From Verrucomicrobiota bacterium (lineage in GTDB: Bacteria; Verrucomicrobiota; Verrucomicrobiia; Limisphaerales; SXTU01): a stretch of 46,206 bases of DNA. A program made the position numbers and the translations under genes. Below are positions 4,737-43,013 of the stretch, in pieces (position 1 is the first letter of the stretch; every line of letters starts with the position of its first letter). Where the stretch lies: NCBI GenBank assembly GCA_016871445.1, contig VHDH01000017.1, forward strand, positions 1-46,206, written 5' to 3'. Below the pieces are notes generated by a model, which worked only from the letters and a program-made list of their open reading frames with translations, was not told where the DNA came from and ran no database searches.

Positions 4737-4804
4737 TGCCGCACGCCGGTTGAAACTTCGCTTTCCCAACTGCGTCTGCTTCCACATGCTTGACCGATGA
4801 TGCG

Positions 4805-6199
4805 ATGAGCTCCGCTTGCACCCCTCAACTTGGCTTCCAAATGACCCGGCGCCGCCTGCTCCAAGTCGGCGGCATGGGCATGTTTGGCATGTCTCTTCCC
4901 AAGTTGCTCGCCGCTGAAGCCAAGGGAGGCAAAAGCCCCATCGCCCGCGCCAAATCCGTCATCTTCCTCTTCCAGTGGGGTGGGCCGAGCCATCTCGAGA
5001 CCTTCGACATGAAGCCCGATGCGCCCGAGGGCATCCGCGGCTTGCACAAGCCGATGTCCTCCAGTGCCGACGGCATCCAGGTCAACTCCCTCCTCCCGCG
5101 CACCGCCAAGGTCATGGACAAGGTCTGCCTCATCCGGTCCATGCACCACACGATGAAGAACCACAACTCGGCGGGCTATTACGCGCTCTCCGGGCACGCG
5201 CCCGCCACGGATGACCAGCGGCTCAAGGACTCCATCGATCTCTTCCCCGCCTATGGATCTGTCGTAGACCGGCTGGCACCGGGCAAAAACCCCGAGTTGC
5301 CCACCTTCGCCGCGTTTCCCTACACCATCGCGGATGGCTCCGTCGTCCCCGCGCAACACGCGAGTTTCCTTGGCAAGGTCCACGACCCGCTGCTCGTGCT
5401 GCGCGACCCGAGCGAGCCGGGCTTTGGCCTGCCGGAACTCAGCCTACCGGCGAACCTTTCCTACGACCGCCTCGCCGCCCGCCGCGAGTTGCAGAAGGTC
5501 GTGGACGCGCAATCCCGCCTGCTCGACTACTCCAGCACCGCGCGCGGCCTCGATGCCTACTACGACAAGGCGCTGGCGATGCTCCACTCCACCAAGCTCC
5601 GCGAAGCTTTCAATCTCGACCGCGAACCAAAGGAACTGCGCGACGCCTACGGCCGCACGCCCTACGGCCAAAGCTGCCTGCTCGCGCGCCGGCTCGTGGA
5701 AACCGGCGTGAAGTTCGTGCAGGTCTATTTCTCCGACAGCATCGGCGGGCGCAGCACCACGGACGGCGGGTGGGACACCCACGGCTTCGACAACACGCGA
5801 ATGTTTCCCATCATCGAGAAGCGCCATCTGCCCATCACCGACCAGACCCTGCCGACCTTCCTCAACGACATGGACTCACGCGGCCTGCTCAAGGAAACCC
5901 TCGTCGTCTGGGTGGGTGAATTCGGCCGGACCCCGCGCATCAACAGCAACATCAGCCGCGACCACTGGCCGCAGTGCTACACGGCGTTGCTGGCGGGCGC
6001 CGGCGTGAAGAAGGGGTTTGTTTACGGAGCCTCCGACAAGCACGGCGAATACCCCGCCGACAAGCCGGTGAAGCCCGACGACCTCGCCGCGACGATTTAC
6101 CACCTGCTTGGCATCGACCCGCACACGGAAGTCCGCGACACGCTCAAACGCCCCGTCCCCATTAGCTACGGCAAGGCCATCACCGAGGTGATGGTGTGA
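4805..6199 (+). CDS. DUF1501 family protein, Tat-exported
   Basis: About 465 residues. Residues 13-35 form a Tat-type signal: MTRRRLLQVGGMGMFGMSLP, with the RRRLL twin arginine and a hydrophobic stretch. The mature part has DUF1501 hallmarks: FLFQWGGPSHLETFDMKP near the start, DGGWDTHG and VVWVGEFGRTP in the C-terminal half, and RDHWPQCY. The fold is related to alkaline phosphatase and sulfatases, and the conserved Asp, His and Glu residues suggest metal binding. These proteins are typical of Planctomycetes and Verrucomicrobia and often accompany PSD1 proteins; their reaction is not known. ATG 4805 was chosen; TTG 4790 and ATG 4841 are alternatives. It converges with the lipoprotein gene, leaving a 3-base gap. 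Confidence 0.88.
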   Translation: MSSACTPQLGFQMTRRRLLQVGGMGMFGMSLPKLLAAEAKGGKSPIARAKSVIFLFQWGGPSHLETFDMKPDAPEGIRGLHKPMSSSADGIQVNSLLPRTAKVMDKVCLIRSMHHTMKNHNSAGYYALSGHAPATDDQRLKDSIDLFPAYGSVVDRLAPGKNPELPTFAAFPYTIADGSVVPAQHASFLGKVHDPLLVLRDPSEPGFGLPELSLPANLSYDRLAARRELQKVVDAQSRLLDYSSTARGLDAYYDKALAMLHSTKLREAFNLDREPKELRDAYGRTPYGQSCLLARRLVETGVKFVQVYFSDSIGGRSTTDGGWDTHGFDNTRMFPIIEKRHLPITDQTLPTFLNDMDSRGLLKETLVVWVGEFGRTPRINSNISRDHWPQCYTALLAGAGVKKGFVYGASDKHGEYPADKPVKPDDLAATIYHLLGIDPHTEVRDTLKRPVPISYGKAITEVMV

Positions 6200-16828: not shown

Positions 16829-19800
16829 TCACGGCGTCATCGTTTCGTTTAGATTCAAAATGACGTTGGCGACCGCAGTCCACGCGGCGAGCTCGGCCGG
16901 ATTGGCGCCGTCGGGGTTTTTGAAGTCGCCGACTTTCAGGAGCGACTCGGCGGCAGGTTTTTCCTCGGTGAAGTGGGCGCGTTGCTTGGCCAAAGTTTTC
17001 TCCAGCACGGCGCGCTCGGTCGCGGACGGCGGGCGAGCAAGGGCAAGCCGCCACGCGTAGTTCAGTTTTGCTGCGTCATCAATTCCACCTTCCTTCAGCA
17101 CGCGGGCAGCAAAGGCGCGGGCAGCTTCGACGTAAACCGGGTCGTTCATCAGCACGAGCGACTGCAGCGGCGTGCTGGTGCGGGGACGTCCGGCAGCGCA
17201 AACCTCGCGGTTCGGCGCGTCAAAGGTGAGCAGACTCGGATACGGCGTGCTGCGGCGGTGATAAATGTAAAGCGCGCGCCGGTATTGGCTCGCATCGCGC
17301 TGCTGCTTCCAGCCGCTGCCGCCCATTTCGTTGATTTCCCAAACACCCGGCGGCTGATACGGATAAACTGGCTTGCCGCCGAGCTGCGGGTTGAGCAGGC
17401 CGGCGATGGCGAGCGCGTTGTCGCGGACGAACTCGGCATCCAGCCGCGCGCGCGGGCCACGAGCGAGCAGGCGATTTTCGGTGTCCTGCGCCAACAACGC
17501 GGGCGTAACAGCGGCGCTCTGCCGGAAAGCGTGGCTCATCACTATCTGCTTGATAGCGCGCTTCACATCCCAGTCGCGCGCGAAGTCGGCCGCGAGCCAG
17601 TTGAGCAGTTCGGGATGGCTCGGCCATTCGCCCTGCGAGCCGAAGTCGTTCACCGTCTTCACCAGCCCGGTGCCAAAGACCATCGCCCAGAAGCGGTTCA
17701 CCGCCACGCGCGCGGTGAGCGGATGTTGCGGCGAAGCGAGCCACTGCGCGAGATCGAGGCGGGTGAGGCGGTTGGTCGAGGTCGTCGCCGGCTTGGGCAG
17801 GAAAGCGGGAAAAGCGGCCTCGACCTTCTCGCCGTTCTTGTCGTAAGCCCCGCGCACCTTGATGAACGTGTCGCGCGGCTTCTCCATCTCGGCCATGACC
17901 ATGACCGTGGGAATGAGCTTGTCGAAGTCAGTCTTCGCCTTGCGCGCGTCCTCGGCGGATTTCTTTGCGGCGAGGTAATCGGTGGCCTGCGTCTCGCGAT
18001 AAAATTTCCGCAGCTTGTCAGCCTGTTCCTTCGTGCGCTTGGCCGGCTCGATGGCCGCGAGGGCGAAGGTTGGCCCGCCCGCGAGCGTGGCGACTTCCTT
18101 CTCGGTGAGCGCGCGCGGGAAAACATACAACTCGTCCACGCGGCCGGTGAAGGGCGAGCCGCCGCCGCCGCGTCGGCCGATGGCAAAGGGTGCGGTGGTC
18201 TTGATGGTGCCGGGGAGTTTGTCCTTGAGCACCTTGCTCGCGACGGGTTGGCCGTTGACAAAGAGTTTCACGCCGGCGGCTTTGCCCGAGCCGTCGTAGG
18301 TGAACGCGAGATGCTGGAACGTGTCGAAGGGCAAATCCTTCTCCGTCTGCACATGAATGGCCTCGTCCGGCCACTTGTGGATGAGGTGAACGCTGGCCTT
18401 CCCAGCCGCGAACTCGATGTCCCAGCCGCGAAAGTTCGGCCCGTTCTCCATCTTGCCCAGCGGCGCGCCGGACGGGGTGTTCTTCACGCGAACCCACAAC
18501 CCAACACTGAATTTATCTTCTTTGTCAAAGTCGTAGCGCTCGCCGAGGTCGGCGTGGCCCTTGGCGGTGAGCAGCAAGCCGTTGCCCTCCACGCCTTCCG
18601 CGAAACCAGTCTCCCCTTTCAATTCAGCTACAATCTCTTTGCCGTCGTGCGTGACGCCGTGCGCGTTGGTGTTCAGCGGAAAGTGGTCGAACGGGCCGGG
18701 GACGGCACGGGCAGTCGGGTCGCTAACGAGCTTCGCTTCCCAAGTTTTTTGCGCGGCGTCGAGCTGGCCTTCGAGTTCCTTCACGCGCTGGTCGGTGGAG
18801 GTGACTTGGGTGGACAACTTCACCAACTCCTTCTCCTGCTCCGCCGACGGCACGGCGAGGCGCGGTTCGGGGTTGAGAGTGCGGGTGCCGTCCTTGCCCT
18901 TCTCCGGCACGTTGTGGAAAAAGGCGTATAGGCTGTAGAAGTCCCGCGTCGTGACCGGGTCGTATTTGTGGTCGTGGCATTGCGCGCAGGCGATGCTCAT
19001 GCCGAACCACGCGGTGCCGAGCGTGCTCACGCGGTCCACGAGGTAGATGTTGAGATATTCGGCATCGATAATGCCGCCTTCGTCGGAGGTCATCACGTTA
19101 CGCATGAAACCGCTGGCAACCTTCTGGTCCATGGTCGCGTTGGGCAGCAGGTCGCCGGCGAGTTGCTCGATGGTGAAGCGGTCAAAGGGCTTGTTGCGGT
19201 TGAAGGAATTCACCACCCAGTCGCGGTAAAGCCAGACTTCGCGGAGGGAGTCGTTGTGATAACCCGCCGTGTCCGAATGCCGCGCAAGGTCCAGCCACGG
19301 CACCGCGACGCGTTCGCCGAAGTGCGGGGAGGCGAGCAGGCGGTCCACGGCACTGGCGATAGCCAATTGCCGATTACCGATGGAAGAACACTCGCGGACG
19401 AAGGCATCCACTTCAGCCGGCGTGGGCGGAAGGCCAGTGAGGGCGAGCGAAAGCCGGCGGAGCAGGACTTCAGGCTCTGCCTCGGGGGCGAAGGTGAGCT
19501 TCTCCCGCTCCAACCGCGCGGCAAGGAAGTGATCAATGGTATTCAGTGAACCCGTTTTAAGCAGGTCTATGGGTGCCTTCGTTCCCGGCGACTGAACACT
19601 GAACACGGACTTGCTGATGGTTTCCTTCTTTGGCACTGCCGGAGCCACCGTCGGCTCAAACGCCCAATGCCCCTGATACATCGCGCCCTCAGCAACCCAG
19701 CGACGGAACAGCTCGCGCTGCGCGGGTGTAATGGCCTTATGCGAGTTGGGCGGCGGCATGAGGTCGTCGGCGTCCTTGGTGAACAAGCGCGCGATGATTT

Positions 19801-20077
19801 CGGACTTCTCTGGCTTACCGGGGACGATGGCGGGTTTCCCAGAAGTGCCGGCCCTGAGTGCCTCTTCGCGCACGTCGAGACGGAGCTTGCCCTTGCGCGT
19901 CTTCTCGTCAAAGCCGTGGCACTTGAAGCAGGTGTCGGACATCAGCGGGCGGATGTCGCGGTTGAAGTCCACGGGCGCGGGCTTCGGCGCGCCAAACAAC
20001 GCGGCGCGCACGGGCGCAGCGAGGGAAAACAAGATAAGCACTGCTGAGAGAATCGGCTTCACAAACATAGGCCCCAT
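16829..20077 (-). CDS. PSD1 protein A: planctomycete cytochrome c + DUF1549 + LamG-like + DUF1553
   Basis: About 1082 residues. A signal peptide (PILSAVLILFSLAAPVRA) is followed by the planctomycete-type cytochrome c region with DTCFKCHGFDEKT (CxxCH at about 50-54) and LMPPPNSHKAITPAQ. Next come DUF1549 (GLPPTPAEVDAFV...WLDLARHSDT...CAQCHDHKYDP at about 364), a LamG/ConA-like sandwich at about 465-655 (ENGPNFRGWDIEF, FVNGQPV, GRVDELYVFPRAL), and DUF1553 from about 750 (HPLTARVAVNRFWAMVFG, TPLQSLVLMNDPV). Probably a secreted heme protein linked to polysaccharide use; the reaction is unknown. Two short repeat-derived segments are inserted in frame. ATG 20077 was chosen; ATG 20068 is also possible. 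It is the last gene of the set starting at 26989. Confidence 0.88.
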   Translation of the reverse strand: MGPMFVKPILSAVLILFSLAAPVRAALFGAPKPAPVDFNRDIRPLMSDTCFKCHGFDEKTRKGKLRLDVREEALRAGTSGKPAIVPGKPEKSEIIARLFTKDADDLMPPPNSHKAITPAQRELFRRWVAEGAMYQGHWAFEPTVAPAVPKKETISKSVFSVQSPGTKAPIDLLKTGSLNTIDHFLAARLEREKLTFAPEAEPEVLLRRLSLALTGLPPTPAEVDAFVRECSSIGNRQLAIASAVDRLLASPHFGERVAVPWLDLARHSDTAGYHNDSLREVWLYRDWVVNSFNRNKPFDRFTIEQLAGDLLPNATMDQKVASGFMRNVMTSDEGGIIDAEYLNIYLVDRVSTLGTAWFGMSIACAQCHDHKYDPVTTRDFYSLYAFFHNVPEKGKDGTRTLNPEPRLAVPSAEQEKELVKLSTQVTSTDQRVKELEGQLDAAQKTWEAKLVSDPTARAVPGPFDHFPLNTNAHGVTHDGKEIVAELKGETGFAEGVEGNGLLLTAKGHADLGERYDFDKEDKFSVGLWVRVKNTPSGAPLGKMENGPNFRGWDIEFAAGKASVHLIHKWPDEAIHVQTEKDLPFDTFQHLAFTYDGSGKAAGVKLFVNGQPVASKVLKDKLPGTIKTTAPFAIGRRGGGGSPFTGRVDELYVFPRALTEKEVATLAGGPTFALAAIEPAKRTKEQADKLRKFYRETQATDYLAAKKSAEDARKAKTDFDKLIPTVMVMAEMEKPRDTFIKVRGAYDKNGEKVEAAFPAFLPKPATTSTNRLTRLDLAQWLASPQHPLTARVAVNRFWAMVFGTGLVKTVNDFGSQGEWPSHPELLNWLAADFARDWDVKRAIKQIVMSHAFRQSAAVTPALLAQDTENRLLARGPRARLDAEFVRDNALAIAGLLNPQLGGKPVYPYQPPGVWEINEMGGSGWKQQRDASQYRRALYIYHRRSTPYPSLLTFDAPNREVCAAGRPRTSTPLQSLVLMNDPVYVEAARAFAARVLKEGGIDDAAKLNYAWRLALARPPSATERAVLEKTLAKQRAHFTEEKPAAESLLKVGDFKNPDGANPAELAAWTAVANVILNLNETMTP
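19357..19382. repeat. CGATTACCGATGG-type short repeat inside PSD1-A
   Basis: GCCAATTGCCGATTACCGATGG reads as repetitive intergenic-style text and encodes the odd segment SSIGNRQLAIAS between VDAFVREC and AVDRLLASPHFGE. Relatives usually have a short, unrelated acidic linker there. The frame is kept. Similar wording (GCGATTGGCGATTAGC) occurs in the copper ATPase gene. Confidence 0.45.
19541..19608. repeat. CAGT-type repeat element, in-frame copy in PSD1-A
   Basis: On the minus strand it starts CCGTGTTCAGTGTTCAGTCG and ends GGGTTCACTGAATACC. It matches the intergenic copy at 8328-8400 at its start and end. It codes for SVFSVQSPGTKAP and neighbours, a stretch that separates the cytochrome region from the NTIDHFLAARLERE helix; relatives normally have only a few residues there. 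Confidence 0.6.
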
Positions 20078-20140
20078 TTTGACCCGGCGCGGGAGGAGGT
20101 CATTCACCGCAGGAACGACTAGTGAGGCGACTGCAACAGC

Positions 20141-23100
20141 TTAATCCACGAATAGAAACTCGTTCGCCGAGAGTAACACTTGTGCGAGCTGTTCCCAGGG
20201 CTTCAGCGGCGGTTGCGCGGGCACGTCCACGCCACGGAAATCCTTCTTCGCGTCCCATTCCTTCACGGGCACCGGCGCAGCCCCGACCACGGCGGCGGCG
20301 GTGTTCAACTCGGTGATGACGGGCGCCCACTTGAACTCGTCGCTATTCAGGTTCGCGCGAAAATCCACGATGAAGTCCAACGTGTCGCCGGCCTGCACGG
20401 CGGTAGAGGGCACGCGCAGGTCCTCTGCTGCGTTGTGCACGGTCACGGTGCGGAGTTGACCTAACCGGCTGTGCGTGATGAACGCCCGCACGCCATCGCC
20501 CGCGCTGGTCTCGTGCGCGATGCGACCCGCGATGTTCACCACGCAGTCGCGCGGCGCAATCCATCGGCGCACGACCGCATGCTGGAGGTCGTTGCCCGCG
20601 TGACCGCCGTCGGCGGTGAGTTGCGCCCAGCCGAGCTTCGCGTCAGGCCAGTTGGGGCCGCCTTGCCAAGCCTTGCCGGTGAAGTGCGGCAATGCCGTGA
20701 AGTTCTTCAACTTGCGGTTCGGCTCATCGAATTCGCCGTATCCGTAACGCCACTGATTTTCTGGCGGTGGCTCAGGTGTTTGCGGCTGGTTCGCCTCGGC
20801 ATCCGCGATAAAGCGCACGGCGGCAGCGGCCTGTGCGGACGTCGGCTCACGTTGGAAAAGCGCACGGTGGAGAAAGCGGACTTTTTCCTCGGGCGAACTC
20901 AGCTTGGAAAAATCGGCGCGTGCGACGAGCGCCTTCGCGCGCGCGGCGACGAACGGGTGATTGAGGAAAAACAACGCCTGCTGCGAAACGGTCGTCTCGT
21001 GTCGCTGCGGAATGTGCAGGTCGGGATTGGCGAAATCAAAGACGCGGAAGAGCGGCGGCAAATACTGGCGGTCAACGAGACCGTAGAGACTGCGACGCTT
21101 GCTGGTGAAAACGTCGGCGGGCCGGCCGCCGGGCGTGAGGTCGAGCTCGCCGCTGGCCGCGAGCAACGAGTCGCGCAGTTCCTCGAAGTCGAGCCGCTGG
21201 CGGTTCGCGCGCCAGAGCAGGCGATTGTCCGGGTCGAGCGCGGTGGCGCGTTTCCAGTATTCAGGATTCAGTTTCCGGTTTTCAGTGGGCCGCCCGCCGC
21301 CCTCGGCCTGCACCGAAGGCTGACTACTGAACACTGAAAACTCACCAGCCTGCTGATACGCCGCGCTGGTGAGCAAAAGTCGGTGTACCGCCTTTAAACT
21401 CCAGCCGTCCGCCACGAAACGCCGCGCGAGCCAGTCCAGCAACTCGGGATGGCTCGGCGGCTCCGCGCGCAGACCAAAATCACTTGGCGTCTTGACAAGG
21501 CCTGCCCCGAAGTGGTGGAGCCAAACCCGATTCACCATCACGCGAGCGGTGAGCGGGTTTTCCGCATTAGCGATGGCGCGGGCGAGTTCCAGCCGGCCGC
21601 TGCCATGCGCAAACGGCTGCCGCTGCGGGCCGGCAACGACTTCCAAGAACTGCCGCGGGACTTCGACCCCTTTCTGCTTCGGGTCGCCGCGCAGGAAGAC
21701 CCGCGGATTTCCCTGCGGCGCACGGTCCGTGACGATGAGCGCGTGCGCCGGGGCGCCGGGCGCGCGGATGAGGTGGCGGTCTACTTCGCCCTGCAACTTC
21801 CACAGCTCCTCGGTCGCCTTCGTGGTGAAGAGCTGCTCGGTGTTCACGATGCCATCAGGTGGGATGACGGCGGGCGAGTCGGCAGCGTAAAGCACTTGGC
21901 GAAGCGCCTCGGCTTGCGGGTCAGGCAACGAGGTGGGCGCGGGGGAATTGTTCGTTTTCGCGGCGTTGAGCGCGGCCTGCCACTGCTGTTCGATGGTGGA
22001 AAAAACTTTGCCGTAACGCTCGGCGACTTCGCGTGGAGATTTCGGAGGCTCGGTGAAAGCGGCGGCGAGCAACGCATTCGGGTTCGCCCCTGCGTTTGGT
22101 GAACGAACGCCGGCTCCCAATTCAGATGGAGCCTCTTCACGTCGGCTGCTACCGACGTGCTGGTGCCACAGCGCCCACACTGGGTCGCCGCGCTTCCGGG
22201 CCTGTTCAAGATACGCCTGCCAGCGGCGGACGGTGGCGGGGATGAGGTCGTTGTCCGTGAGGATTTGGTCGAAGCCTTCCTCGGGATACTTGTGCAGCTC
22301 GAACTGGGCAGCGAGATAGTCCGTCACTCGGGCGCGGACGCGCGCAGCGGCTTCGGCACGGCGCGTGGCCATCGTCGAGTTCAGCTTGTCGAGGCGAGTG
22401 CGGTATTCCTTGTCAAAGGCAGCGAGCGCATCGGACTGCGCTGGGAATTCGATTTGAACCAACTCATCCGCCGTGCTCTGGAACACGCCGTAAAGCGAGT
22501 AGTAATCTGCAGTTGGAATGGGGTCGTATTTGTGGTCGTGGCAGCGCGCGCACTGGACGGTCAACCCCATCGTGCCGCGCGTCACCACGTCAATGCGGTC
22601 ATCAAGGATGTCGTGCGTCACCCCGATGAAGCGGCGGCCCGTCGTGAGGAAGCCGAGGGCGGCAAGGTCAGCAAGTTTCGAGTTTTGAGTTTCGGGTTTT
22701 GAGTTGGCAGCGGTGTCCGGCAGTGCTCCGCCAACTCGAAACGGCGATAGCTGGTCGCCGGCTATCTGAAGCATCAGGAACCGGTCGTAAGGCAAGTCGT
22801 TGTTCAGCGCGCGGACCACCCAGTCGCGGTAAGCGTGGGCGTGGACGAAGAAGCGTTCTTCGCGGGCATAAACGTAGCCCTTCGTGTCCGCGTATCGCGC
22901 GACATCGAGCCAGTGCCGCGCCCAGCGCTCACCGTAGAGCGGTGAGGCGAGCAGGCGCTCCACGAGTGCGGCGATGGCTCTTTGCTCACTTTCCCGCTTT
23001 CTCACTTTCTCACTATCTCGGATGGCAGGCGGGAAAGTGGGGGAGTGAGAAAGTGAGAATTCCCTTACGAACGCCTCGACCTCCTCCGCGCTCGGCGGCA

Positions 23101-23773
23101 GGCCGGTGAGGTCGTAAGTCATCCGGCGGATGAGCGTGCGCGGATCGGCCGGCGGCGAGGGCTTCAGGCCGTTGGCCTCCAGTTTCGCGAGGATGAAGTG
23201 GTCCACCGGCGACTGCGGCCAAGCCTTGTCCTTCACCTTGGGCAGCGGCTGGTCCTTCGGCGCAACGAACGCCCAGTGCGGCTTCGAACTTTGAACTTCA
23301 GATTTTGCACTTTTAACTTCGCCCGCGCGCGGGTCCGGTGCGCCGCTGCGAATCCACACCTCGAAGTCGGCGAGTTGCTGCGGAGAAAGTTTCTTCTTCG
23401 GGGGCATCTGCAAGTCCGCGCTCGTGTGGCGGATGGCCGCCAGCAACCGGCTATTCTCCGGCTCGCCGGGCACAACGGCGGGTTCGCCCGAGTTGCCGCC
23501 GCGTCGCAAGCCGTCGCGGGTGTCCACGCGCAACCCGGCCTTGAGCGACTTGCTCGTTGCGCTGTGGCACTCGTAGCAATGCTGAGCGAGCACGGGGCGG
23601 ATGCGCCTCTCGAAGAAATCAAACTCAGTCACGGAAGCTCCCAAGCCCAAGCTCCAGAACCCCAAGAAGCACCAAGCTCCGAATACCAATTGCCAGGCAC
23701 CACGTGCGCTTTGGAGCTGGGTCATTGGAGCTTCTTTGGGATTTGGCGCTTGGCGCTTGGAACTTCGGTTCAT
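20141..23773 (-). CDS. PSD1 protein B: planctomycete cytochrome c + DUF1549 + DUF1553 with multiple in-frame repeat inserts
   Basis: About 1210 residues. CxxCH is at CYECHSATSKSLKAG, with QMPPKKKLSPQQLADFEVWIRSGAPDP completing the cytochrome domain. DUF1549 includes LTGLPPSAEEVEAFV, HWLDVARYADTKGYVYARE and CARCHDHKYDP; DUF1553 includes NPLTARVMVNRVWLHHFGAGLV and VSQQALFFLNHPFV. A C-terminal beta-sandwich of about 200 residues follows. Counted from GTG 23782, unusual segments lie at residues 156-167, 243-266, 346-371, 544-567 and 812-841, each encoded by a low-complexity or palindromic repeat and each placed in a loop. The signal-peptide region comes from another repeat. Start is uncertain: GTG 23782, ATG 23773 or ATG 23725. 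It lies 50 bases after the propeller gene and 63 before PSD1-A, so probably one operon. Confidence 0.85.
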   Translation of the reverse strand: MNRSSKRQAPNPKEAPMTQLQSARGAWQLVFGAWCFLGFWSLGLGASVTEFDFFERRIRPVLAQHCYECHSATSKSLKAGLRVDTRDGLRRGGNSGEPAVVPGEPENSRLLAAIRHTSADLQMPPKKKLSPQQLADFEVWIRSGAPDPRAGEVKSAKSEVQSSKPHWAFVAPKDQPLPKVKDKAWPQSPVDHFILAKLEANGLKPSPPADPRTLIRRMTYDLTGLPPSAEEVEAFVREFSLSHSPTFPPAIRDSEKVRKRESEQRAIAALVERLLASPLYGERWARHWLDVARYADTKGYVYAREERFFVHAHAYRDWVVRALNNDLPYDRFLMLQIAGDQLSPFRVGGALPDTAANSKPETQNSKLADLAALGFLTTGRRFIGVTHDILDDRIDVVTRGTMGLTVQCARCHDHKYDPIPTADYYSLYGVFQSTADELVQIEFPAQSDALAAFDKEYRTRLDKLNSTMATRRAEAAARVRARVTDYLAAQFELHKYPEEGFDQILTDNDLIPATVRRWQAYLEQARKRGDPVWALWHQHVGSSRREEAPSELGAGVRSPNAGANPNALLAAAFTEPPKSPREVAERYGKVFSTIEQQWQAALNAAKTNNSPAPTSLPDPQAEALRQVLYAADSPAVIPPDGIVNTEQLFTTKATEELWKLQGEVDRHLIRAPGAPAHALIVTDRAPQGNPRVFLRGDPKQKGVEVPRQFLEVVAGPQRQPFAHGSGRLELARAIANAENPLTARVMVNRVWLHHFGAGLVKTPSDFGLRAEPPSHPELLDWLARRFVADGWSLKAVHRLLLTSAAYQQAGEFSVFSSQPSVQAEGGGRPTENRKLNPEYWKRATALDPDNRLLWRANRQRLDFEELRDSLLAASGELDLTPGGRPADVFTSKRRSLYGLVDRQYLPPLFRVFDFANPDLHIPQRHETTVSQQALFFLNHPFVAARAKALVARADFSKLSSPEEKVRFLHRALFQREPTSAQAAAAVRFIADAEANQPQTPEPPPENQWRYGYGEFDEPNRKLKNFTALPHFTGKAWQGGPNWPDAKLGWAQLTADGGHAGNDLQHAVVRRWIAPRDCVVNIAGRIAHETSAGDGVRAFITHSRLGQLRTVTVHNAAEDLRVPSTAVQAGDTLDFIVDFRANLNSDEFKWAPVITELNTAAAVVGAAPVPVKEWDAKKDFRGVDVPAQPPLKPWEQLAQVLLSANEFLFVD
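21254..21343. repeat. CAGT-type repeat element, in-frame copy in PSD1-B
   Basis: On the minus strand it reads GAGTTTTCAGTGTTCAGTAG, then a GGCCGAGGGCGGCGGG middle, then CCACTGAAAACCGGAAACTG. The arms TTTTCAGTGTTCAGT and ACTGAAAACCGGAAACTGAA are imperfectly complementary. It encodes about 30 residues (EFSVFSSQPSVQAEGGGRPT and on) between LTSAAYQQ and ATALDPDNRLLWR. Those two blocks are separated by about 10-15 residues in relatives. Confidence 0.65.
22079..22156. repeat. GTCGGCTGCTACCGAC-type palindromic repeat inside PSD1-B
   Basis: The element contains the perfect hairpin GTCGG-ctgcta-CCGAC (22141-22156), GGCTCCC...ATGGAGCC, and GTTCG...CGAAC arms (22082-22106). Read on the minus strand in the gene's frame it gives GSSRREEAPSELGAGVRSPN. 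The segment lies in the spacer region between DUF1549 and DUF1553, where length varies among relatives. Confidence 0.6.
22674..22746. repeat. GAGTTTCGGGTTTTGAGTT-type palindromic repeat inside PSD1-B
   Basis: The left arm GTTTCGAGTTTTGAGTTTCG plus GGTTTTGAGTTGG (22675-22707) is matched by the right arm CCAACTCGAAACGGCG (22731-22746), with a GC-rich loop of about 23 bases. It encodes about 25 residues (SPFRVGGALPDTAANSKPET...) between LQIAGDQL and ADLAALGFLTTGRRF. Relatives go almost directly from the one to the other. Confidence 0.65.
22984..23061. repeat. CTCACTTTCTCACTTTC-type palindromic repeat inside PSD1-B
   Basis: CTCACTTTCCCGCTTTCTCA and more (22985-23013) pairs with GGGAAAGTGGGGGAGTGAGA and more (23030-23058), nearly complementary over about 28 bases. 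The loop carries TATCTCGGATGGCAGG. The gene's frame reads SLSHSPTFPPAIRDSEKVRK and a few more residues between VEAFVREF and QRAIAALVERLLASPLYGER. The homologous linker in PSD1-A carries a different insert. Confidence 0.7.
23283..23320. repeat. AT-rich low-complexity insert in PSD1-B
   Basis: TTCGAACTTTGAACTTCAGA followed by TTTTGCACTTTTAACTTC is strikingly AT-rich within a GC-rich gene and is made of repeated (G/T)AACTT words. It encodes VKSAKSEVQSSK between the cytochrome domain (GAPDPRAGE) and PHWAFVAPK. Confidence 0.55.
23633..23768. repeat. 136-bp imperfect palindromic element covering the 5' end of PSD1-B
   Basis: The left arm (23635-23702) contains AGAACCCCAAGAAGCACCAA and GCTCCGAATACCAATTGCC. 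The right arm (23703-23765) contains TTGGAGCTTCTTTGGGATTT and GGCGCTTGGCGCTTGG. The reverse complement of the left arm follows the right arm for most of its length, word by word (GGAGCTT, CTTCTT, GGG, TTTGG, GCTTGG). The element overlaps the start codon candidates and encodes the hydrophobic N-terminus AWQLVFGAWCFLGFWSLGLG. Confidence 0.7.
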
Positions 23774-23830
23774 CGCGGGCACACGGTCTAAGACGCAGCG
23801 CAGGCTACCGAATTCGCCGCGCGGAGCTGC

Positions 23831-37031: not shown

Positions 37032-37244
37032 AGGAAAGCGTGTGTGTAGGTGGTATTCGTGACGCGAGGGATGCCAAAGGTTTTTCTCGAAGATGTCAAA
37101 CCTCGGTTCCGCGCCGTCGGAGCCTTCAGGTAAGATTCTGATTTCCCTTCGAAACAGGAACCATCACTCTCTACCAATAGATTGCCGCCTGTAGTAATGC
37201 GGCTAAAAGCCAGTGCCTTTATGGGCGCTGTGCGGAAACCAGAT

Positions 37245-38231
37245 ATGCAAAACAACGTGACGGTGGTGTGTGGCGGTGGCGGCTTCATCGGCGGCCACTT
37301 GGTGGCGGACTTGCGGCGACAGGGCATTGGCCCCATCCGCAGCGTGGATCAAAAACCCTTCGACGGCTGGTATCAGAAGTTCGACGGCGTGGAGAACCTC
37401 GTCCTCGACCTTCAAGACAAGGCCGCCTGCGAGCGTGCGACGCGAGGCGCGGCCGTGGTGTATAACCTAGCTGCCGACATGGGCGGCATGGGCTTCATCG
37501 AAAATAACAAGGCGCTTTGCATGCTTTCGGTGCTCATCAACACCCACCTGCTTATGGCCGCCAAGGCCGCCGGGGTGGACCGCTTTTTTTATGCGTCCTC
37601 CGCGTGCGTCTACAACGGCGATAAGCAAAAGGATCCCACGATCACCGGCCTAGCCGAAGCGGATGCTTATCCCGCGCTACCCGAGGATGGCTACGGTTGG
37701 GAAAAACTCTTTAGCGAACGGATGTGCCGCCACTTCCGCGAGGACTTCGGCCTCAAGACCCGTGTCGCGCGCTACCACAATGTCTATGGCCCCGAAGGCA
37801 CCTGGGACGGCGGTCGCGAGAAGGCTCCCGCCGCCGTGTGCCGCAAGGTCATCGCCGCCAAGCTCTCAGGGAAACATGAGCTCGAAATCTGGGGCGACGG
37901 TAACCAAACTCGCTCGTTCATGTATGTGGACGACTGCCTTAAGGGGACGCAGATGCTCACGCACAGCGATTACGTCGAGCCGATCAACATCGGCAGCGCC
38001 GAGAAGGTCAGCATCAACCAGCTTGTGGACATTGTTGAATCCATCGCCGGCCTGAAGCTCAAGCGCAACTACAAGCTTGATGCCCCAAAGGGCGTCAACG
38101 GCCGCAACTCCGACAACACGCTCATACAGAGAGTTTTTGGCTGGGAGCCGTCCATCCCGCTGCGCACCGGCATGGAGAAGACCTATGCTTGGATTTACGA
38201 CCAGATGGTCTCCCAAGCAAAGTCAAAGTGA
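37245..38231 (+). CDS. GDP-mannose 3,5-epimerase-like NAD-dependent epimerase
   Basis: 328 residues. It is an extended SDR enzyme with the dinucleotide motif GGGGFIGGH. It has phrases very close to plant GDP-mannose 3,5-epimerase: NLAADMGGMGFIENN, FFYASSACVYNGDKQ, GYGWEKL, RYHNVYGPEGTWDGGREKAP, GDGNQTRSFMYVDDC, and GVNGRNSDNTLI. The residues matching the plant catalytic Cys145, Tyr174, Lys178 and Lys217 are present (about C121, Y150, K154, K193 here). The plant enzyme turns GDP-D-mannose into GDP-L-galactose. A GT4 glycosyltransferase follows 69 bases downstream, so it may supply sugar for a polysaccharide. ATG 37245 was chosen; the longer frame to 37182 has a non-family leader. Confidence 0.85.
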   Translation: MQNNVTVVCGGGGFIGGHLVADLRRQGIGPIRSVDQKPFDGWYQKFDGVENLVLDLQDKAACERATRGAAVVYNLAADMGGMGFIENNKALCMLSVLINTHLLMAAKAAGVDRFFYASSACVYNGDKQKDPTITGLAEADAYPALPEDGYGWEKLFSERMCRHFREDFGLKTRVARYHNVYGPEGTWDGGREKAPAAVCRKVIAAKLSGKHELEIWGDGNQTRSFMYVDDCLKGTQMLTHSDYVEPINIGSAEKVSINQLVDIVESIAGLKLKRNYKLDAPKGVNGRNSDNTLIQRVFGWEPSIPLRTGMEKTYAWIYDQMVSQAKSK

Positions 38232-38300
38232 ACCGCCGCTGACGCCGGGGCTTTCCACAAACGGCCTGACTTACTAGCATAGGCGCGTCTCTGTTGGCCG

Positions 38301-39521
38301 ATGCGCATCCTGCTACTCAACCAGTGCTTCCACCCAGACGTGGCATCCACGGCGCAGCACTTGTCGGACTTCGGCGTCGGGCTGGCCGAGCGCGGTCATC
38401 AGGTCACGGCCATCGCCAGCCGCCGTGCCTATGACCGGCCGGAGCAGCGCTTCCCCGCGCGCGAAACCTGGAAGGAAATTGAAATCTGTCGCCTCGCCTC
38501 GACCGGCTTTGGCAAGGGCGCGAAGTGGAAACGCGCGGCGGACTTCGGCTCGTTCAGCGCGGCCTGCACGTTGCGCCTGCTGGTGGCAGACCGCTACGAC
38601 GCGGTCGTAGCGCTGACCTCGCCACCGCTCGTCTCGTATCTTGCCGCATGGTTTTGCCGGCTGCGCGGGGCGAAGCTGTTTTACTGGGTGATGGACCTGA
38701 ACCCAGACGAGGCACTCGCTGCCGGCTGGCTGCGCGAAGGCGGCCTGCCGATGCGCGCGCTCGAAATCATGTCACGGTTCAGCCTGCATCAGTCGCACCG
38801 CATCATCGCGCTGGACCGTTTCATGCGCGACCGAATTGTCGCAAAGGGTATTCCCGCCGAACGCGTCGCCGTTATTCCGCCGTGGGCGCATGATGAAGCC
38901 GTCCGCTTCGACCCCGAGGGTCGCGCAAAATTTCGCACCCAGCACGGGCTGACGGACAAGTTCGTCGTGATGTACTCCGGCAACCACAGCCCGGTGCATC
39001 CGCTCACCACGTTGCTGGAGGCCGCGCGCAGACTAGCGGACGACCCGCGCTTTATCTTCTGCTTTGTCGGTGGCGGCAGCGAACATCCGCGCGTGCAGAA
39101 GTTTGCCGGGCAGTACAGCTTGAAAAACATCCTCTGCCTGCCCTACCAGCCGCTCGCTGAACTCGCTGGCTCACTCTCGGCCGCTGACTTGCACGCGGTC
39201 GTACTCGGCGACCCGTTTGTCGGGATGATCCATCCCTGCAAGATTTACAATATTCTCACCGTCGGTGCGCCGTTACTCTATGTTGGTCCAGAGCCAAGCC
39301 ATCTCGCGGACATTCTCGCGGGCATGGAGGGCTCGCCGCACACAGCGCGGGTGGCGCATGGAAAACCGGAAGACGCGGTGACGCAGATCAGGCGCATCGC
39401 CGCGCTCGGCACGCGCGGGGATAAGGAACTGTTCAAGCGCGCAGCGGCGAAGTTCTCTGTTCACACCCTGCGTCCACAACAAGTGAAGCTGCTGGAAGAC
39501 AGCTTCGCGACGCCGACCTGA
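38301..39521 (+). CDS. GT4-type glycosyltransferase
   Basis: 406 residues, a GT-B fold. The N-terminal half MRILLLNQCFHPDVASTAQH and FGVGLAERGHQVTAIASRRAYD match the donor-free Rossmann half of GT4 enzymes; FYWVMDLNPDEA and MSRFSLHQSHRIIALDRFMRDR follow. The C-terminal half has VVMYSGNHSPVHPL and LCFVGGGSEH-type text (actually FCFVGGGSEHPRV), and VLGDPFVGMIHPCKIYNILTVGAPLLY, where the E-x7-E of many GT4 members is degenerate. It transfers a sugar from a nucleotide donor; no membrane segment is seen. It is adjacent to and probably cotranscribed with the GDP-mannose epimerase-like gene. Confidence 0.85.
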   Translation: MRILLLNQCFHPDVASTAQHLSDFGVGLAERGHQVTAIASRRAYDRPEQRFPARETWKEIEICRLASTGFGKGAKWKRAADFGSFSAACTLRLLVADRYDAVVALTSPPLVSYLAAWFCRLRGAKLFYWVMDLNPDEALAAGWLREGGLPMRALEIMSRFSLHQSHRIIALDRFMRDRIVAKGIPAERVAVIPPWAHDEAVRFDPEGRAKFRTQHGLTDKFVVMYSGNHSPVHPLTTLLEAARRLADDPRFIFCFVGGGSEHPRVQKFAGQYSLKNILCLPYQPLAELAGSLSAADLHAVVLGDPFVGMIHPCKIYNILTVGAPLLYVGPEPSHLADILAGMEGSPHTARVAHGKPEDAVTQIRRIAALGTRGDKELFKRAAAKFSVHTLRPQQVKLLEDSFATPT

Positions 39522-42215: not shown

Positions 42216-42890
42216 TCACGCCCGCGGGCCATACACGCTGCCGAGCACTACGTCGCGGGCCTTCCAAACCAAGGACATTGTCACGGATACGGGCACCAAC
42301 ACCAATATCACAACCATCGCGAAACGGATGCGCGCGACCGAACCGAAGTCCAACGCTTCGAGGACGGGCTGAGGGAGCTGATTGAGCCGCGCCAACAGGT
42401 ACCAGCCGCCGACGAGGACAACACCCACCAGCATCAGCGTCAGGTTAAGCCGCGTGAAGAAGCGTGTGTCCTCGCGCAGTGGCTCGTCCGGCAGCAGCGC
42501 GACCAAGCGTTGCAAAACTTGATTTAGCTGGAGCAGGAACAGCACGGCTGTAACTGCCAACGTAATTATGGCTTGAAAGTAATATGTCTCCGTTGGCACG
42601 CGGCTCCAAAAATACACGAAAGGCGACAGACCGAAATTGGCCAAAGCCAGCAATTGCGCGCGCTCGAGTGCTGCCTGCCACGTGCGCTCCTGTGGCTGGA
42701 ACCGCGCCATTTCGAAGACGCCCAGCAACAACAACCCCGTAGCGATCAGCGGCGGCGCACATCCCAGCGTTCGGGGAAACTCTGCCACCGCCATCAGTAC
42801 GCATATCAGCAGCGTGCTGGGCAGGCCCCAGAAAATCGCGGTCAGTCCCCGAACCAAGCGGCGGAGTGAGGGCAAGAGATCGGCATTCAT
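42216..42890 (-). CDS. Integral membrane protein of unknown function, about six TM segments
   Basis: 224 residues. Hydrophobic segments can be seen near IFWGLPSTLLICVLMAVAEF, LIATGLLLLGVFEM, ALANFGLSPFVYF, YYFQAIITLAVTAVLFLLQL, LNLTLMLVGVVLVGGWYLLA and FAMVVILVLVPVSVTMSLVW. A charged cytoplasmic stretch (QRLVALLPDEPLREDTRFFTR) lies in between. No family signature is recognised. ATG 42890 gives a short basic N-terminus; an upstream frame to 42944 lacks support. It lies between speA and the ConA-like protein, all minus strand. Confidence 0.7.
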   Translation of the reverse strand: MNADLLPSLRRLVRGLTAIFWGLPSTLLICVLMAVAEFPRTLGCAPPLIATGLLLLGVFEMARFQPQERTWQAALERAQLLALANFGLSPFVYFWSRVPTETYYFQAIITLAVTAVLFLLQLNQVLQRLVALLPDEPLREDTRFFTRLNLTLMLVGVVLVGGWYLLARLNQLPQPVLEALDFGSVARIRFAMVVILVLVPVSVTMSLVWKARDVVLGSVYGPRA

Positions 42891-43013
42891 GGAATGCCCA
42901 ACTAACGCCCAATTAGGAACACCCAAAGGACCGCATCGGTGCAAGCCCGGGACGTTGGAAATTCTTTTTCCATCGAGAATTTGGCCTCGTCCATTCCGCC
43001 GTTGCCCCGTGGC

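Follow-up and report, generated by a model that had tools for sequence, protein, structure and literature searches.

Plants use GDP-mannose 3,5-epimerase (GME) for ascorbate synthesis and for cell-wall L-galactose (PMC8787198). A survey counted 43 bacterial homologues in 2011 (PMC3220709), and in 2019 the enzyme MfGM35E of Methylacidiphilum fumariolicum SolV, encoded next to a glycosyltransferase, was assayed and a role in lipopolysaccharide (LPS) was proposed (PMC6678494), a finding repeated in a review (PMC8787198). Two GME-like enzymes of actinobacteria, BlmG (bleomycin) and the A201A epimerase, have been tied to L-gulose and L-galactose (PMC6678494). Here, we analyze a 46,206-nucleotide stretch of DNA from a Verrucomicrobiota bacterium (hereafter the window; GenBank assembly GCA_016871445.1, contig VHDH01000017.1, positions 1 to 46,206), in which a GME-like gene is followed by a gene for a glycosyltransferase of family 4 (GT4). 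Because the Methylacidiphilum study was already in print, a bacterial GME beside a glycosyltransferase is not new, and the initial annotation of this locus, which called GDP-L-galactose or GDP-L-gulose an unusual donor for a bacterium, was dated on this point. We find that the window protein is most likely a bacterial GME, as judged from its sequence, and that it belongs to a clade separate from both the plant and the Methylacidiphilum-type enzymes.

Results

The GME-like gene (37245–38231, forward strand) runs from an ATG at 37245 to a stop codon at 38231 and encodes an extended short-chain dehydrogenase/reductase (SDR) of 328 aa with a Pfam Epimerase domain (137.6 bits). This ATG is favoured over an upstream TTG at 37182, given that in the relative L003 the stop-to-stop frame opens just two codons ahead of the residue matching Met1 of the window protein. 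A search of solved structures gave 49 distinct sequences at E ≤ 1e-10, and plant GMEs take the first five places, led by those of Arabidopsis thaliana (2c59; E 7.5e-90, 304.8 bits) and Myrciaria dubia (8sg0; 304.6 bits), whereas the next solved family, GDP-L-fucose synthase, reaches 96.9 bits. Solved GMEs thus outscore every other SDR family (305 versus 97 bits); the similarity is far above chance, and a chance resemblance was therefore rejected.

Eight active-site positions of GME were taken from PMC8787198 and PMC6678494, and in a residue-by-residue alignment the window protein keeps 8 of 8, comprising the Ser/Tyr/Lys triad, the Cys–Lys acid–base pair, the acidifying Arg, the phosphate Arg and a conserved Asn (S119, Y150, K154, C121, K193, R287, R223 and N179, equivalent to Arabidopsis S143, Y174, K178, C145, K217, R306, R243 and N203). 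Each is also kept in all 46 quick-tree rows of the clade to which the protein belongs. The NAD motif GxxGxxG/A is present as GGGGFIG (residues 10–16), and the plant words GGREKAP and GRNSDN are identical, so that the catalytic Cys, Tyr, two Lys and both words named in the initial annotation are all in place; the sequence, the residues, the tree and the fold prediction all point to this assignment. An AlphaFold2 model (mean pLDDT 81) is predicted to share the fold of solved GMEs, with TM 0.80–0.85 by query to the plant enzymes, which make up its first 14 matches in the Protein Data Bank (E 3.6e-33 to 1.9e-30; next match 2.5e-23).

Of the curated models, 17 from NCBIfam match the protein and 0 do so above their own cut-off, the best being GDP-L-fucose synthase at 112 bits versus a cut-off of 500. 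GME differs from that family in having Lys rather than His as the base and Arg rather than Lys beside the Cys (PMC8787198), and the window protein has the Lys and Arg, which together with the low score places it outside the GDP-L-fucose synthases. Other SDR families (GDP-L-fucose synthase, GalE and UDP-xylose synthase) were rejected by score, tree and residues.

Two trees were built, a quick one of 90 rows (80 GME and 10 outgroup) and a careful one of 46 rows (43 GME and 3 outgroup) drawn from these. The rows are a chosen subset, namely 29 of 80 named loci, further genomes and four plasmid records; they include two plant rows but no named, assayed bacterial sequence, MfGM35E (I0K0X9), BlmG and the A201A epimerase being absent. 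Each row needed the word EKAP and more than 290 aligned residues, by which L147–L149 were left out. EKAP contains one active-site residue, and all 129 distinct GME-like proteins above 200 bits carry it, so this filter did not produce the conservation of the Lys. In the careful tree, the window protein lies inside the rooted GME family (100/100). A tree was the check proposed in the initial annotation, with placement in another epimerase family as the outcome that would count against it, and the protein came through. Within the family, it falls in a window clade with full support (100/100, 26 rows in the careful tree; SH-aLRT 100, 46 rows in the quick tree) that spans Verrucomicrobiota, Acidobacteriota, Planctomycetota and Alphaproteobacteria. 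The plants group with other bacterial GME rows (96/91), and the Methylacidiphilum-type rows f4 and g10 fall outside both (97/87); the same two forks have SH-aLRT 90 and 87 in the quick tree.

The f4 and g10 rows, from genomes of 2.2–2.5 Mb, are probably Methylacidiphilum. They are 50.6% identical to Arabidopsis GME, compared with 50.5% published for MfGM35E. A GT4 gene adjoins GME, with an Rsm22-like gene two past it, and four genes off in the opposite direction lies a CDP-alcohol phosphatidyltransferase gene; these neighbours agree with the published surroundings and accession order of MfGM35E (PMC6678494). If this assignment holds, the window clade is bracketed by characterized GMEs, and inheritance of their reaction is the simplest explanation. 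The quick tree also contains another, more divergent clade of GME-like proteins from Verrucomicrobiota (L122 and L124–L137, 15 rows), and in its seven aligned rows QNCY replaces HN(I/V)Y and (S/A)RNF replaces GRNS.

At least 576 relatives were confirmed among at least 586 matched stretches of bacterial and archaeal genomes; the best 80 of these at least 576 are 70–95% identical to the window gene, under titles that include Verrucomicrobia, Acidobacteria, Phycisphaerae and a Nitrospirae metagenome-assembled genome (MAG), among others. With so many bacterial and archaeal relatives, and plant enzymes about 45% identical, the earlier label "plant-like" is loose. At E ≤ 1e-60, genes of several GME clades occur in 44 of 288 sampled Verrucomicrobiota genomes, and six (G007, G020, G053, G214, G245 and G270) carry two each. 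Of the 11 genomes in the window's own family, 10 carry GME, and the exception is 80% complete. Four relatives (L001, L003, L004 and L006) come from MAGs whose titles (Proteobacteria, Klebsiella pneumoniae, Akkermansia) clash with their 90–95% likeness to a verrucomicrobial-type gene, and are probably misnamed bins. On plasmids of Azospirillum and Skermanella, copies at 70% and 67% identity lie among polysaccharide genes and genes for glycosyltransferases, methyltransferases and nucleotide-sugar dehydrogenases; the annotation of three plasmid-borne relatives goes no further than "NAD-dependent epimerase/dehydratase family protein".

The second gene of the pair (38301–39521, forward strand) encodes a WcaI-like GT4 of 406 aa. 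It follows GME on the same strand after a gap of 69 bases (38232–38300), and from spacing and conservation the two probably form a two-gene operon. The broad GT4 assignment is supported by three GT4-type Pfam domains, two over their cut-off and one exactly at it. Its nearest curated models are those of WcaI, the fucosyltransferase of colanic acid, but at 127 bits for PRK10307 (cut-off 276) and 88 bits for TIGR04007 (cut-off 800) it lies below both cut-offs and is therefore a relative of WcaI rather than a member. Among solved structures, the GT4 has no sequence relative at E ≤ 0.001. It is present (E ≤ 1e-100) in 7 of the 11 genomes of the window's family and lies directly downstream of GME in 7 of 7, starting 67–76 bases past the last GME sense codon (72 in the window), so that the intergenic distance is much alike in the window and the other six. 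Outside the family, kin at 48–53% identity occur in five of the 288 genomes, adjoining GME in G234 and on a different contig from it in G066; kin at 39–41% occur in three, adjoining GME in G071 and without GME in G108 and G131. In G187, G190 and G199, the remaining genomes with kin at 48–53%, the gene order is GT2, GT4, a PF00953 transferase and Wzy, that is, the order of GME-bearing clusters minus GME, and in G234 and L045 GME is inserted between the GT2 and the GT4 (Pfam names were obtained for the G234 cluster, and the other clusters were named by likeness to it). Given that clusters of the same order exist with and without it, GME looks like an optional module beside the GT4.

Neighbours of GME were counted at 99 loci of the window clade by a method other than longest-open-frame calling, which lost GME in some loci through spurious frames. 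Most of the loci (79 of 99) were picked for their similarity to the window, out of the best 80 of at least 576 relatives; L053, a duplicate of L143, was omitted. The shares therefore do not give rates for whole phyla, and the counts are lower bounds, since at some loci the flanks fall short of 3 kb. Within 3 kb of GME, a GT26 was found in 34 loci, a GT4 of the modelled type in 23 and a nucleotide-sugar dehydrogenase in 14, some loci having more than one. The GT26 (WecG/TagA/CpsF) adjoins GME in L138, L028, L144, L037, L070 and L159, and L138 also has an exosortase (EpsH) and a DUF3485 protein. Polysaccharide genes likewise surround GME in Skermanella and G234. GDP-L-fucose synthase occurs in 10 of the 99 loci (6 within 3 kb of GME) and Gmd-like genes in 9 (5 within 3 kb); in L037, L052 and L054 the synthase (469–488 bits) stands side by side with GME, and as it is unlikely to duplicate the job of its neighbour, this points to a distinct role for GME. 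At L051, L052, L054 and L059, GME, a Gmd-like gene and GDP-L-fucose synthase all lie within 3 kb, which amounts to two L-sugar donor routes from GDP-mannose.

The window genome (3.49 Mb, 95.6% complete) encodes a mannose-1-phosphate guanylyltransferase with a Pfam ManC domain (306 bits, against 373 for the cut-off of a longer fused model), a polysaccharide-export match (34.6 bits, cut-off 28) adjoining a Wzz/ATPase protein, and one GT26 near a Wzy-type ligase. It also has Gmd (538 bits, above cut-off), and L082 is probably its GDP-L-fucose synthase, at 459 bits narrowly short of the cut-off of 500. The GME/GT4 pair itself is flanked by fabF and by genes for a Gfo/Idh/MocA oxidoreductase, an amidohydrolase and a CoA-binding protein; the downstream CoA-binding gene is kept in L001–L003 and the amidohydrolase also in L002. 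A recent import of the pair is unsupported, its G+C (0.586 and 0.625 in two 2-kb windows) being inside the range of the whole window (0.577–0.692) and GME being present in nearly all genomes of the family. Elsewhere, the window encodes two large PSCyt1/PSCyt2/PSD1 (DUF1549/DUF1553) proteins (16829–23782), a DUF1501 protein (4790–6199) and, at 42219–42944, a protein of 242 aa that contains hydrophobic stretches and matches nothing in Pfam at E ≤ 0.001.

Discussion

By analogy with the characterized enzymes, from which its substrate, chemistry and products are taken, the window GME would convert GDP-mannose to GDP-L-galactose, and this product would act as sugar donor in building a surface polysaccharide or another glycan, with the adjacent GT4 as one candidate user. 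GDP-L-galactose for a surface glycan is likely to be what the enzyme supplies, and we regard it as the most probable use. Family membership, the conserved residues, the recurring gene pair and, elsewhere in the genome, genes of capsule type and for the supply of GDP-mannose are direct observations; the polymer role and the part of the GT4 in it are read from the gene neighbourhood.

Several points weigh against this account. The plants lie nearer to bacterial GME rows outside the window clade, the root within GME is less certain than the clades because the outgroup rows are distant, and the clade marks W42, C92, E265, R274 and A280 are in neither the plant nor the f4 rows. Model confidence falls below 50 at residues 78–87 and 187–190, close to the active site. 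No assay of a window-clade member was found in the open-access literature; papers on cyanobacterial mats (PMC12555021) and vitamin C (PMC9602106) do not mention the clade in the sections available. The window pair stands outside any polysaccharide cluster, among unrelated genes, three genomes of the family (G289, G293 and G295) have GME without the GT4, and the GT4 kin of G187, G190 and G199 occur without GME at E ≤ 1e-60. At the clade loci, 32 of 99 have none of GT26, GT4 and nucleotide-sugar dehydrogenase, and at 12 of 99 a GDP-L-fucose synthase gene, a Gmd-like gene or both are present, so that some neighbouring transferases, a GT4 among them, may take GDP-L-fucose as their donor.

Some of these points bear on what the enzyme makes. 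Clade-specific residues might alter the product, and an enzyme of the GME fold could stop after one inversion and release mainly, for example, GDP-L-gulose or GDP-D-altrose; C92, E265, R274 and A280 fit such a change, as does the Asn that replaces Pro three residues past the catalytic Cys in 13 of 15 aligned clade rows. However, the acid–base pair, the Arg and the triad are unchanged throughout the clade (46/46 rows) and double epimerases flank it in the tree, and we consider a different main product unlikely. Action after GDP-mannose 4,6-dehydratase (Gmd), as an epimerase/reductase leading to a 6-deoxy sugar (GDP-L-fucose or GDP-6-deoxy-L-gulose), would suit the Gmd of the window genome, the Gmd-like genes at clade loci (285 and 295 bits in L031 and L055, where the cut-off is 415) and the identity of the best NCBIfam model, although that model scores far below its cut-off. 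This is very unlikely, given that a separate GDP-L-fucose synthase is available both in the window genome and beside GME in L037, L052 and L054, and that the Lys base and the Arg beside the Cys follow the GME pattern (PMC8787198). Hardly any probability attaches to ascorbate synthesis as in plants: GME does belong to the plant pathway and the genome has one weak ALO-domain match (25.7 bits, cut-off 23.1), but the match is partial and on a different contig, and glycosyltransferase and polysaccharide genes make up most of the neighbours identified across the clade.

The chances that the GT4 uses the GME product are about even. On an equally weighted alternative, it takes another donor, GDP-L-fucose being the likeliest, and the two genes adjoin since both feed one polymer, while another transferase, such as the GT26 of the genome, takes GDP-L-galactose. 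The conserved cluster order, with the GT4 retained where GME is missing (G187, G190 and G199) as well as where it is present (G234 and L045), favours another donor, as do the GDP-L-fucose synthase genes within 3 kb of GME in the GT4-bearing loci L052, L054 and L059 and the greater frequency of GT26 as a partner in the clade. Against it, the GT4 of the window's family is seen solely right behind GME, and several separate GT4 groups adjoin GME or lie within 2 kb. The initial annotation took the adjacent glycosyltransferase as a sign of use in a surface polymer; polymer use fits the settings of the relatives, whereas GT4 kin without GME and fucose genes in some clusters leave the GME product as a candidate donor of the GT4.

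To our knowledge, L-galactose is seldom reported from bacterial glycans. We tentatively propose, at somewhat less than even chances, that the window clade is a widespread unnamed lineage of bacterial GME, through which L-galactose (alternatively L-gulose or D-altrose) would be a common but overlooked sugar in the surface polymers of Verrucomicrobiota, Acidobacteriota, Planctomycetota and Alphaproteobacteria. Partner transferases (GT4, GT26) would be gained and lost beside GME, and some cells would also use L-fucose, the 6-deoxy twin of L-galactose. What makes the clade of interest is its size: if it is confirmed as GME, a single assay would help to name hundreds of genes and would guide chemists to L-galactose in bacterial coats.

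Compared with known systems, the window GME shares all eight active-site residues, the fold and both sequence words with the GMEs of Arabidopsis thaliana and Myrciaria dubia (2c59 and 8sg0), at 45–47% identity over the aligned part. BlmG and the A201A epimerase are, like the window protein, bacterial and GME-like, by description rather than by sequence, but their setting is natural-product synthesis. The GT4 has its best curated matches in the WcaI family (PRK10307 and TIGR04007). The closest described system is MfGM35E, with which the window GME has in common the family, the active-site residues and a glycosyltransferase neighbour (PMC6678494). The f4/g10 (Methylacidiphilum-type) GME, however, is only about 49% identical to the window GME and in a separate clade, and its GT4 lies upstream of GME rather than downstream and falls in another group of the GT4 tree (26% identity). 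What the window adds to the 2019 discovery is thus a second bacterial GME branch with different partner genes.
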